DNA from: Catellatospora vulcania
GTDB lineage: Bacteria > Actinomycetota > Actinomycetes > Mycobacteriales > Micromonosporaceae
Direction of reading: 5' to 3'
Assembly (NCBI RefSeq): GCF_009720385.1
Contig: NZ_ML769302.1
Span: forward strand, 654,937-718,936
Length of the DNA stretch: 64,000 bases
Made by a program: the position numbers and the translations under genes
In this document: positions 11,378 to 61,127 of the stretch, piece by piece
Layout of the letters: the number at the start of each line of letters is the position of its first letter
Numbering within the stretch: the first letter of the stretch is position 1
The notes under the pieces: model-generated
The model's input: the letters and a program-made list of their open reading frames with translations, nothing else
Databases searched by the model: none
What the model was told of the DNA's origin: nothing

Positions 11378-11944
11378 GTGACAACGATGACCCATCCGCT
11401 GCTCCGGCCTCAGCCGCTGCGCCCCTGGCAGTTCGAGGACCTGCTCGACTCGCCGGACGACGGCTACCGGTACGAGATCTTCGACGGGACCCTGCTCGTG
11501 ACCCCACCACCTCCGCTGCCTCACGCGAACCTTGTCTACCGGCTGCGTCGTGCCCTTGATCGGCAGGCGCCCGATGCGCTGGCCGTGAGCGAAAACATCG
11601 CCGTGCTACGTCCGGACGGCACCTCTTTCTTCATCCCCGATCTGGTGATCTTCGACGCCGGCCTGCTCGACAGCTCGCTCCCGGCGCTGCCCCCGGCCGG
11701 GGTGAAGCTCGTAATCGAAGTGGTATCGCCGAGCAACCCCAGCAACGATCTGGTGCTCAAGCGTTCCGGTTACGCGATGATCGGCGTCGCCGAGTACTGG
11801 ATCGTCGACTCACGGTCCCAGGAGGTTCTGGCGCTCACCCAGCCACGTTCGGATGGCTACCTCGCTGAGGAGAAGCGCACCGGCACGATGAGCGGTGCCG
11901 CGCCGTTCCCGTACGAGCTGGATCTAGCCAAGATCTTCGCCTGA
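11378..11944 (+). CDS. Uma2-family protein (PD-(D/E)XK nuclease fold)
   Basis: About 188 residues. It shows the Uma2/DUF820 pattern YRYEIFDGTLLVTPPPPLPHA, then IPDLVIFD and KLVIEVVSPSNPSNDLVLKRSGYAMIGV, with the Asp, Glu and Lys that form a restriction-nuclease-like metal site, and ends PFPYELDLAKIF. The biological role of Uma2 proteins is unsettled; they occur in many copies in actinomycetes and cyanobacteria. The GTG start has GAGAGG five bases ahead; an ATG three codons later is possible. It is a single gene flanked by a strong terminator. Confidence 0.85.
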   Translation: MTTMTHPLLRPQPLRPWQFEDLLDSPDDGYRYEIFDGTLLVTPPPPLPHANLVYRLRRALDRQAPDALAVSENIAVLRPDGTSFFIPDLVIFDAGLLDSSLPALPPAGVKLVIEVVSPSNPSNDLVLKRSGYAMIGVAEYWIVDSRSQEVLALTQPRSDGYLAEEKRTGTMSGAAPFPYELDLAKIFA

Positions 11945-33009: not shown

Positions 33010-33039
33010 ATGACCGAGCGGAGCGAGGCAGGGTCATGA
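33010..33039 (+). CDS. Micro-ORF coupled to the XRE gene (MTERSEAGS)
   Basis: Nine codons encoded by a GAGCGGAGCGAGG repeat. A strong Shine-Dalgarno region (GGAGGAGGGGGCGGGG) lies ahead, and the stop TGA shares bases with the ATG of the next gene (ATGA at 33036-33039). The arrangement is the same as in the micro-ORFs at 53374 and 60237-60364. It may be a translation relay rather than a functional peptide. Confidence 0.4.
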   Translation: MTERSEAGS

Positions 33040-52247: not shown

Positions 52248-53377
52248 ACACCGTGATCTCTCCTCGGCAGGATCCCACCGCCCGGCCGTTCCTTGAGCTG
52301 CGCGATCTGAAGATCCACTTCCCGACCGACGACGGCGTGGTCAAGTCCGTCGACGGACTGTCCTTCTCGCTGGAGCGGGGCAAGACGCTCGGCATCGTGG
52401 GCGAGTCGGGCTCCGGCAAGTCGGTGTCCAGCCTGGGCATCCTCGGCATCTACCACCGCCGCAACGCGAACGTGTCGGGCGAGATCTGGCTGGACGGCCA
52501 GGAACTGGTCAGCTCGTCGCCGGAGACCGTACGCGGGCTGCGTGGCAAGCGGATGGCGATGATCTTCCAGGATCCGCTGTCGGCGATGCACCCCTACTAC
52601 ACCGTCGGCGCCCAGATCATCGAGGCGTACCGGGTGCACCACAAGGTGTCCAAGAAGGTCGCCCGCAAGCACGCGATCGATCTGCTGGCCCGGGTCGGCA
52701 TCCCGCAGCCGGACAAGCGCGTGGACGACTACCCGCACCAGTTCTCCGGCGGTATGCGCCAGCGCGCGATGATCGCGATGGCGCTGTCCTGCGACCCGGA
52801 GCTGCTGATCGCCGACGAGCCGACCACCGCCCTCGACGTGACGGTGCAGGCGCAGATCCTGGACCTGATGCGCGACCTGCAGCAGGAGTTCAACTCCGCG
52901 CTGATCATCATCACCCACGACCTGGGCGTCACCGCCGAACTCGCCGACGACGTGCTGGTCATGTACGGCGGCAAGTGCATCGAGTACGGCGCGGCCACCG
53001 AGATCTTCGAGAACCCCGAGCACCCGTACACCTGGGGCCTGCTCGGCTCGATGCCGCGGCTGGACCAGCCGGTCACCGAGCGGCTGCTGCCCATCAAGGG
53101 CACGCCGCCGTCGCTGATCAACATCCCGTCCGGCTGCGCCTTCCACCCGCGCTGCGCCTTCGAGGGGCGCACCGCGGGAGCCAGTGACACGCTCGTGCCC
53201 GAGCTGCAGCTCACCGGTACCAGCGGGCACCGGGTGCGCTGCCACATGCCGGCGCAGGTGCGTCAGCAGATCTGGCGTGACGAGATCAAGCCGACCCTGG
53301 AGGGCACGGGGCAGAGCGTGGCGAGCATGTCAGAGCTGCCGTCGGCCTCCGACGAGCAAAGCGAGGAGGTCGCATGA
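52244..53377 (+). CDS. Oligopeptide ABC transporter ATP-binding protein (OppD/DppD-like)
   Basis: About 377 residues. Walker [17 protein letters not shown], signature [15 protein letters not shown], Walker [15 protein letters not shown] and the C-terminal oligo_HPY region with [12 protein letters not shown]. The last residues [10 protein letters not shown] resemble the end of the following micro-ORF, so the repeat has extended into the 3' end. The TGA shares ATGA with the micro-ORF start. Confidence 0.93.
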
Positions 53378-53445
53378 GCGAGCACAGCGAGCGATTCATG
53401 TGGCTGATCGATGCGGCCGACGAGCGAAGCGAGGAGGTCGCATGA
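53351..53445 (+). repeat. 68-bp spaced duplication of GACGAGCRAAGCGAGGAGG
   Basis: The block GACGAGCRAAGCGAGGAGG plus TCGCATGAG occurs at 53351 and again 68 bases later at 53419, differing at one position. Each copy carries a Shine-Dalgarno core (GAGGAGG) and an ATGA stop/start. Confidence 0.8.
53374..53445 (+). CDS. Micro-ORF of 23 codons between the two Opp ATPase genes
   Basis: It begins [15 protein letters not shown] and ends DERSEEVA. Its ATG overlaps the stop of the OppD-like gene and its TGA overlaps the start of the OppF-like gene, so ribosomes could pass through all three frames. It is made by the duplicated GAGCGAAGCGAGGAGG block. I regard a coupling role as more likely than a functional peptide. 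Confidence 0.45.
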
Positions 53446-59994: not shown

Positions 59995-60240
59995 TCAGCC
60001 CTCCGGGCGGTTCAGCAGGCCCACGGCCAGCGCGTGCAGCGCCTGGGCGGGGTCGGTGACCGGCACGGTCGCGCCGGTCACCGTGTACCACTCCTCGGCG
60101 CCCAGGTACTGGACGCGGAGCCGGGCGGTGCCGTCGCCGCCCAGCTCCGTGGCGAGCGTCAGCTCACCGGTGACCACGCCCACCTCGTCGGTCATGACAC
60201 CGCCAGGCCCGGCCACGATGTTCGTGGTCAACGCGCTCAT
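59995..60240 (-). CDS. Small hypothetical protein
   Basis: About 81 residues: MSALTTNIVAGPGG then VMTDEVGVVTGELTLATELG and GDGTARLRVQYLGAEEWYTV. A small beta-rich soluble domain is suggested. Its ATG overlaps the stop of a micro-ORF (ATGA at 60237-60240); the second Met at 60195 is a possible alternative start. I know of similar short proteins in Micromonosporaceae but no function. Confidence 0.6.
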   Translation of the reverse strand: MSALTTNIVAGPGGVMTDEVGVVTGELTLATELGGDGTARLRVQYLGAEEWYTVTGATVPVTDPAQALHALAVGLLNRPEG

Positions 60241-60311
60241 GCTGCGAACCCGCTTCGCGCGTTCGCAGCATGAATACCGGCGCTGATGATTCGCTCGCTT
60301 CGCGCGCTCAT
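60237..60311 (-). CDS. Micro-ORF 2 of the relay, 24 codons
   Basis: It begins MSARSERIISAGIHAA and ends ARSGFAA. Its ATG lies inside the stop of micro-ORF 1 (ATGA) and its TGA overlaps the ATG of the small gene at 60240. The words GCGCGAAGCGAGCGAATCAT and GCGCGAAGCGGGTTCGCAGC repeat within it, and GCTGCGAAC/GTTCGCAGC forms a hairpin. Coding status uncertain. Confidence 0.45.
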   Translation of the reverse strand: MSARSERIISAGIHAANARSGFAA

Positions 60312-60364
60312 GCGATGAACCTGCTACGGATGTCCACCACACGAGTGCGGGCGTGCTCGCTCAT
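60308..60364 (-). CDS. Micro-ORF 1 of the relay, MSEHARTRVVDIRSRFIA
   Basis: 18 codons. The ATG overlaps the stop of the HNH lipoprotein gene (GTATGA at 60361-60365) and the TGA overlaps the ATG of micro-ORF 2. The beginning MSEHAR resembles MSEHSER of the Opp micro-ORF. The frame is kept by the overlaps, not by a recognisable protein family. Confidence 0.45.
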   Translation of the reverse strand: MSEHARTRVVDIRSRFIA

Positions 60365-61041
60365 ACACAGGTCCCCAGCATGTCGGTCAGGGCGGCCTTC
60401 TCGGCCGTGGTCACGGTGAGTTTCCAGTGGGTCTTCACCGTGATCCATTGTTGCGCATAAGTGCACCAATAGTCCTTGCTTGGCGGCTTCCAGGTCGACG
60501 GGTCCTGGTCGCCCTTGGACCGGTTGCTGGTCGCCGACACCGCGAACAGCTGCGGCCGGTCCAGGTCGTTGGCGAACTGCGAGCGCTTCTCGTTGGTCCA
60601 CTCGTCCGCGCCGGAGCGCCACGCGTTGGCCAGCGGCACCATGTGGTCGATGTCCACCTTGAGCGGGTCGCTGGTCTTGAGGCCGTCGTACACGCTGGAC
60701 CACTCGCCGCCGGTGACGTTGCAGCCGTCCAGCTTGATCTTCTTGCCGTCGCGGGCGAGCACGGTGTCGCGCACGTCGCAGTTGGACCCGGCCTTGTTCC
60801 AGTGCGGGAACTTCTCCCGCGTGTAGCCGGTCATCGGCCGCGCGGCGGCGACCTTCAGGGTGGACAGTGACGCGAGCGCGTTGCTGCCCGCGTTCGGGTC
60901 GACGTTGACGCCACCGGGCCCGGCCGGGCTGCCGGGACCGCTTTCGACCGGGTCGCAGGCGGTGGTGGTCGCGACGGCCGCGACGGCCGCCACCAGGAGC
61001 AGGAGAATTCTGGTACGTCTGGGGCGTTTGGGGGATCGCAC
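60361..61041 (-). CDS. HNH-endonuclease-family lipoprotein (DUF1524-like)
   Basis: About 226 residues. Lipobox VATTTAC with Cys near 29 follows RTRILLLLVAAVAAVATTTA. The nuclease domain has DVRDTVLARDG, DIDHMVPLANAWRSGADEWT, DLDRPQLFAVSATSNRSKGD and W..Y..CTYAQQWITVKTHW, the His-Asn-His arrangement of DUF1524/GmrSD-type HNH proteins. It should face outward and may cut extracellular DNA. I chose the GTG (VRSPKRPRR) as start; an ATG at 61080 would give an acidic, atypical signal peptide. It heads a chain of two micro-ORFs. Confidence 0.85.
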   Translation of the reverse strand: MRSPKRPRRTRILLLLVAAVAAVATTTACDPVESGPGSPAGPGGVNVDPNAGSNALASLSTLKVAAARPMTGYTREKFPHWNKAGSNCDVRDTVLARDGKKIKLDGCNVTGGEWSSVYDGLKTSDPLKVDIDHMVPLANAWRSGADEWTNEKRSQFANDLDRPQLFAVSATSNRSKGDQDPSTWKPPSKDYWCTYAQQWITVKTHWKLTVTTAEKAALTDMLGTCV

Positions 61042-61127
61042 CCGCTCACCATACGAGTAGTCCTCACCATCACCACGCATCCGTCACCTTCGCGTTACCC
61101 GGCGCGGCGGCGGGCGGGGGGACGACA

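Follow-up and report, generated by a model that had tools for sequence, protein, structure and literature searches.

A probable relay of two MIRU-type elements inserted into a stop/start overlap of Catellatospora vulcania

Two Micro-ORFs Joined by ATGA Overlaps

The window, that is, the whole stretch of 64,000 nucleotides of Catellatospora vulcania DNA that was analysed, carries on its minus strand an HNH gene, two micro-ORFs and a small gene, in this order, joined by three ATGA overlaps:

60361..61080, minus strand: HNH gene, putative lipoprotein with a GmrSD_C (HNH-type) domain, 3' end GTATGA
60308..60364, minus strand: element 1 with micro-ORF1, 18 codons (MSEHARTRVVDIRSRFIA), 53 bp between ATGAs
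60237..60311, minus strand: element 2 with micro-ORF2, 24 codons (MSARSERIISAGIHAANARSGFAA), 71 bp between ATGAs
59995..60240, minus strand: downstream small gene, 81 codons, starting on the third ATGA

The domain of the HNH gene was identified by Pfam (PF07510, GmrSD_C, E 8.7e-13); the gene has 46 related loci, and its nearest relatives are seven Catellatospora records of 71–95% identity. For the small gene the Pfam search gave no domain, and the reading upstream of its inner ATG is retained in congeners. An earlier note on this DNA had described two micro-ORFs in an ATGA chain leading from the HNH gene to the small gene, and we confirmed both coordinates and frames. The repeated word to which it drew attention, GCGCGAAGCG, is indeed present twice in micro-ORF2 (within 60251-60264 and 60296-60309), but is missing from micro-ORF1.

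Element 2 is a hairpin variant of a repeat family, for which we built a model, R1, from 30 C. vulcania copies, element 2 being one of them; it is matched by R1 with E 3.7e-12 (G000:C3:715173-715247) and by nhmmer with E 5.6e-8. Element 1 was not matched by R1; in C. paridis a similar insert of 53 bp is present on its own, and element 1 is probably an internally shortened copy.

The ATGA chain taken alone is weak evidence, being only mildly unlikely by chance. Chains of two micro-ORFs of 12–40 codons joined by ATGA only, of which the window has one, were present in 5 of 120 dinucleotide-shuffled strands, and when GTGA and TTGA links were also allowed some chain appeared in every one of the 120.

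A Repeat Family with a Frame Rule

In the C. vulcania genome R1 gave 103 matches at E<=0.1. The frame was counted in 68 copies, drawn from 99 of the 103 matches, that end in DTGA on either side and extend to the left end of the model; the 31 of the 99 left out miss DTGA at one end, or the left model end. From DTGA to DTGA, 63 of the 68 have a spacing of 2 mod 3, and the mini-ORF is open in 62; five copies are exceptions to the frame rule, and one copy that keeps it has an in-frame stop. The inserts are 55 to 77 bp long, with 29 of the 68 at 71 bp, and shared ancestry accounts for part of this agreement in length. Among the lengths other than 71, 34 of 39 are 2 mod 3 (binomial p 5e-12 against 1/3), one third being only a rough baseline since, as a control, the adjacent DTGA lies in that frame in 6/47 cases for the next upstream and in 19/40 for the next downstream.

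To describe the neighbourhood, a frame was called coding-like when it had 300 nt without stop and its highest GC at third positions. Such a frame starts at the right DTGA in 58 of the 68 copies, ends at the left DTGA in 41 and does both in 35; in the same test 3200 random RTGA positions gave 34% beginning, 3.4% ending and 1.1% both. Eight of the 10 copies with no coding-like frame downstream adjoin another copy, and element 2 fails this test only because the small gene has 81 codons. An SD-like word (GGAG, GAGG, AGGA or GGGG) precedes the right start in 66/68 copies and 16% of the random RTGA positions; element 2 is one of the two copies that lack it. The frame and position of the repeats near start codons, which the earlier note had proposed to score, are hence non-random.

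Empty and Filled Sites in Catellatospora

We compared the focal junction with that of ten other genomes of the genus. In three of them (C. bangladeshensis, Catellatospora sp. KI3 and C. tritici) the TGA of the HNH gene directly overlaps the ATG of the small gene. Six others have a single insert with ATGA at both ends, of the following lengths:

71 bp: G122, C. coxensis, C. sichuanensis
74 bp: G127
65 bp: C. methionotrophica
53 bp: C. paridis

C. vulcania has two stacked inserts, of 53 and 71 bp. All eight ATGA-to-ATGA links of the junction, congeners and C. vulcania together, are open and 2 mod 3, which is the only spacing able to link the frames. The remaining congener, G128, has an unrelated 40-bp spacer, so the overlap is not strictly required here. 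Given orthologous sites both empty and filled, and eight of eight links open and in frame, the overlap would most simply be ancestral and the micro-ORFs two insertions. Of the earlier reading, in which a repeat had been shaped into a relay between two genes, the repeat with its kept frame and ATGA ends remains, but it is not one repeat: two inserts are stacked in an ATGA overlap that already existed.

The window has another site of this family, where two copies lie in tandem:

53314..53377, plus strand: degenerate family copy that reads as a C-terminal addition to the upstream gene
53374..53445, plus strand: the window's second full copy of the family, ATGAs 68 bp apart, forming a tandem with the degenerate copy at 53314..53377

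In four congeners the gene here still has its short ancestral end, which overlaps by ATGA, and in G128 a short end with GTGA; in the remaining genomes the C-terminal extension arises from the degenerate copy, followed by the second copy in C. vulcania, G122, C. coxensis and C. paridis. Elsewhere, the L033 site 11420-11541 is empty in C. sichuanensis and C. methionotrophica. At L033 +7728 (G000:C8:235727) a bare GTG start has received an element in C. vulcania, C. paridis, G122, C. methionotrophica and C. sichuanensis; the site is empty in C. coxensis and, as read from the flanks, in the five remaining genomes. The target is, for this reason, not always a stop/start overlap. The spacing of this element reads as an in-frame N-terminal extension.

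The number of tandem units at one site differs among species. Four tandem copies were seen at L167 9552-9838 of C. sichuanensis, with fewer in the other species read there, and L131 (G000:C15:129104-129315), with three nearly identical 71-bp tandem copies, is a possible variable-number locus.

Predicted Hairpins and Paired Changes

A stretch of 221 nt at the focal junction folds far below its shuffles (z -5.4). The structures that we consider are:

60237..60273, minus strand: right hairpin of element 2, an inverted repeat with a 13-bp outer stem, the ATG of the small gene in the 3' arm and no SD-like word
60308..60344, minus strand: right hairpin of element 1, with a stem of 13 bp that includes G-U pairs and has the micro-ORF2 start codon in its 3' arm
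60289..60311, minus strand: left module of element 2, in which T at position 23 faces the first base of ATGA, with family covariation L1-L23

The right hairpin of element 2 has a predicted energy of -28.7 kcal/mol (z -8.4), and that of element 1 of -15.5 kcal/mol (z -3.0). The right end of the element could fold into a stem, TCATGCC...GGCATGA, closing at the start codon that follows it. For 85 distinct right ends taken from two species, 90.3% of the cells at pairs 4-7 are paired; with the 3' arms reassigned (1000 shuffles) the figure was 83.5% at most. The outermost pair is present in only 51%. Among the copies at the focal site of C. vulcania and its relatives, 7 of 8 fold, at -15.5 to -29.8 kcal/mol, into outer stems of 12-13 bp whose 3' arm contains the ATG; the C. 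paridis hairpin folds no better than its shuffles. In the eight hairpins together pairing is found in 95.2% of cells. The covariation score was higher than in any of 500 shuffles and about three times that of the best slid version. Double changes occur in three pairs; the count of doubly changed pairs was matched by 30/500 shuffles, and that of doubly changed cells by 15/500. For eight related sequences, these paired changes are strong but not conclusive support for a start-codon hairpin, and template-switch correction of palindromes would be another source of them.

The left module can be written as DT-GA-GC-GA-GC-(3 nt)-GC-GA-GC-GA-AY. The first base of its DTGA varies together with position 23 (L1-L23, n=78: A-T 48, G-C 19, A-C 7, G-T 2, two others; Fisher p 2.8e-10, with copies treated as independent), and in a scan for covariation only the loop pair L11-L13 scored higher. 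The same first-base rule was looked for in 31 distinct elements of other genera by means of an ad hoc pattern, in which the position is not strictly fixed and six elements are unreadable: it is kept in 24 of the 25 readable ones, and, when the other six were read by eye, five fit the rule and L102 does not. Beyond the closing pair the signal for pairing in the stem is modest (0.915 observed for six stem pairs, shuffled maximum 0.889). Folding energy gave no low z-score for the left hairpin with either DNA or RNA parameters, and RNAfold drew the GA-interrupted left stem for the GTG forms; the case for a left hairpin rests on covariation.

The core GCGNAGC is present in the right module of 53/68 copies and in the left module of 25/68. 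In the available part of PMC4686876 this heptamer is described as a GNA-loop DNA minihairpin, extraordinarily stable for any N, which would explain the free n in the earlier note's GAGCGnAGCGAG.

As regards the strand, R7-R31 and R10-R28 each show T-G 7 times, with C-A absent from the listed types, favouring a structure in the coding strand; R4-R34 (C-A 8, T-G 2) and L1-L23, with the A-C and G-T counts given above, would favour the opposite one, perhaps because start codons are constrained at these positions.

Frame and Peptide of the Mini-ORFs

By codon position 1, 2 and 3 the entropy is 0.69, 0.86 and 0.66 in the left module (52 copies) and 0.64, 0.96 and 0.79 in the right module (60 copies), so that neither module has an excess at third positions. 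A peptide function of the mini-ORFs was considered and is unsupported, position 2 and not position 3 being the most variable. Frame and length are kept while the peptide is not evidently under selection, and for this reason the pattern points to the passage of ribosomes over a peptide product; the mini-ORF peptides would be by-products.

Occurrence in Other Actinomycetes

In a second species, left out of the R1 model, 26 of 28 copies are 2 mod 3, after 5 of 33 matches were dropped from the frame count. At E<=0.001 the 11 genomes of the genus have 8–147 matches each, C. vulcania having 88; with 150 candidates scored per genome, the high counts are possible lower bounds. In other genera of the order, among the matches listed, 67 of 67 full-model matches have a length that is a multiple of three, and in other orders of the class, again among the matches listed, 36 of 42 do; such lengths agree with the frame rule, which requires them. 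These two counts cover listed matches over model positions 1-75 and check the matched length, with end letters read for 33 rows. At E<=1e-4 matches occur in 20 of 197 class genomes, five of the 20 being from the same order; at E<=0.01 they occur in 65 of 121 order genomes, single matches near this threshold being unreliable. Rfam returned two matches, both far under the family cut-offs.

Comparison with MIRUs and Other Repeats

According to the available part of PMC12548453, which cites Supply 1997, mycobacterial MIRUs insert at start codons and have an internal ORF coupled at -4 nt; the parts available of PMC12548453, PMC4213456 and PMC2734929 describe them as short repeats with an internal ORF that form tandem arrays. 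The MIRU units of senX3-regX3 are given as 77 and 53 bp in the portion available of PMC4213456, and both lengths are 2 mod 3. The device was thought in the earlier note to be undescribed; this did not hold, since the same architecture is described for mycobacterial MIRUs (PMC12548453, available part), and coupling by a repeat that carries a micro-ORF is known already.

The C. vulcania family was compared with MIRUs trait by trait. It is a short interspersed repeat in many copies (103 matches in its own genome and 8-147 per genome of the genus); its internal small ORF overlaps the flanking stop and start (open and linked in 62/68, coding-like frame on both sides in 35/68); it is inserted at DTGA or start codons, with empty sites in relatives at the focal junction, L033 11420-11541 and L033 +7728; and the number of tandem copies is polymorphic at the between-species level.

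We searched, moreover, for GAGCGnAGCGA followed by GAGGAG, which we take to be the MIRU core motif. One genus lacks it (0 of 17). Across 397 order genomes it is present in 17, which belong to a single other genus, and the reversed control gave no matches. AcpS from that genus matches PDB 3ne1/3h7q with E below 1e-74, and these structures are presumably mycobacterial. Among 15 such cores in 12 loci, 8 have DTGA on both sides: five measure 50, 50, 50, 53 or 65 bp (2 mod 3), of which the 65-bp one contains an internal stop and the other four are open, and three are off the rule, namely one of 54 bp and two units of the tandem L211. GAGCGnAGCGA and the reading frame are common to the R1 family and these units (GDDAERSDEEERRR; AERSDEEER and DERSEE), which suggests a common origin of the R1 family and MIRUs, likely but not proven, the core being the one that we assumed and not taken from published units.

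The likeness comprises short repeats that form tandems, an internal ORF, insertion at start codons, coupling at -4 nt, which for the R1 family is predicted, and the presumed core GAGCGnAGCGA followed by GAGGAG. Unlike MIRUs, the R1 family ranges beyond mycobacteria, its units are mostly 56-86 bp with two hairpin modules and the first-base covariation, and in some copies a long stem would lock the start codon that follows. REP/BIME and other MITE-like palindromes are short, intergenic, hairpin-forming and present in many copies, and so is the R1 family; in contrast to them, its elements lie at gene starts, keep the frame and have a mini-ORF with an SD-like word, and no Y1 transposase with matching ends was found in the genus. 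Rickettsia palindromic elements lie inside ORFs and are tolerated by staying in frame with host genes; R1 elements also stay in frame, but many are intergenic and end in a stop/start overlap. A search by title and beginning of abstract, in which subscription literature is thinly covered, gave no paper on MIRU-like repeats outside mycobacteria. New here are the wider range among actinomycetes, the predicted hairpin that would lock a start codon, with its paired changes, and the covariation between the first base of the overlap and an internal base.

A Proposed Ribosome Relay and Its Alternatives

We consider it likely that two MIRU-type elements were inserted, one after the other, into the ATGA overlap that joined the HNH gene to the small gene, and that they form a ribosome relay. 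Insertion, the empty sites, the conserved frame and the position at gene starts are shown here. Each element would start right after a start codon, carry a mini-ORF in fixed frame and end with a new DTGA. A ribosome finishing the HNH gene would restart on micro-ORF1, next on micro-ORF2 and next on the small gene, and we infer such termination-reinitiation through both micro-ORFs from the layout of the sequence. The small gene may be translated mainly by ribosomes delivered in this way, its dependence on the relay being greater because the SD-like word is missing and its ATG is predicted to be buried in a 13-bp hairpin.

That the chain arose by chance from overlaps in GC-rich sequence is next to impossible in our judgement: the shuffled strands with an ATGA chain of two micro-ORFs, 5 in 120, would leave room for it, but it is refuted by the orthologous sites, empty and filled, by a family of 103 matches and by the frame rule kept in other genomes. 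The chain is real because relatives have empty sites and a genome-wide family keeps the same frame; the claim that it is unlikely by chance thus stands on these grounds, and not on the chain itself. It is possible, and we lean against it, that the elements are neutral or selfish and make no useful relay, the ATGA ends and the frame surviving only since copies that harm genes are lost. Mini-ORF peptides that are not conserved, 8 to 147 matches per genome within the genus, as for spreading repeats, and tandem arrays would all fit; yet the frame is kept over lengths of 56-77 bp, suggesting that it matters, to the host genes at least, that the mini-ORF is translated through. An element may be selfish in origin and still work as a relay.

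Rather unlikely, to our mind, is that the hairpins and the GA-flanked GCGNAGC are single-stranded DNA ends for a transposase of IS200/IS605 or REP-like type, with the translational layout merely following from the choice of target. The L1-L23 covariation does look like that of a guide with its target, DNA minihairpins with a GNA loop are described as very stable (PMC4686876, available part), and Y1_Tnp is found in 6 of the 11 genus genomes, which have more matches (28-147 vs 8-88, Mann-Whitney p 0.022). However, the C. vulcania genome has no Y1_Tnp (PF01797) despite its 88 matches, no element lies near any of the nine Y1_Tnp loci, where the core motif is absent and R1 scores 11.1 bits at best (E 0.015), and the Y1_Tnp locus whose ORFs were inspected looks like an ordinary tnpA/tnpB pair. 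The trait of IS200/IS605 or RAYT systems, a Y1 transposase with matching hairpin ends, was found neither in the C. vulcania genome nor at the nine congener loci, and a Y1 transposase was rejected as the mover, these loci showing no element-like ends.

Returning to the relay of inserted elements, one may tentatively, and with more doubt than trust, extend it to a class-wide actinomycete family of micro-genes aiming at stop/start overlaps. The closing base of the left hairpin would read the first base of DTGA (A-T, G-C), the GA-flanked GCGNAGC minihairpin would be a core common with MIRUs, and the right hairpin would provide either an SD or a start-codon lock opened only by the relaying ribosome. 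Insertion would then be harmless, and a loose coupling could become obligatory.

If this is right, MIRUs would be one branch of a large actinomycete repeat family and not a mycobacterial curiosity, and the family would spread in gene-dense genomes by restoring the very overlap that it interrupts. It would give a comparative handle on how MIRUs move, and on whether micro-ORFs whose peptide is unimportant are retained because they deliver ribosomes. Such genomes would be expected to show N-terminal and C-terminal extensions specific to a lineage, and tiny ORFs starting MSERSER.

As a minor observation, positions 33010-33039 of the window (plus strand) hold an ATGA, a GA-flanked GCGNAGC core and, 26 bp on (2 mod 3), a further ATGA, directly preceding an apparent XRE-type frame; this may be a minimal solo element.
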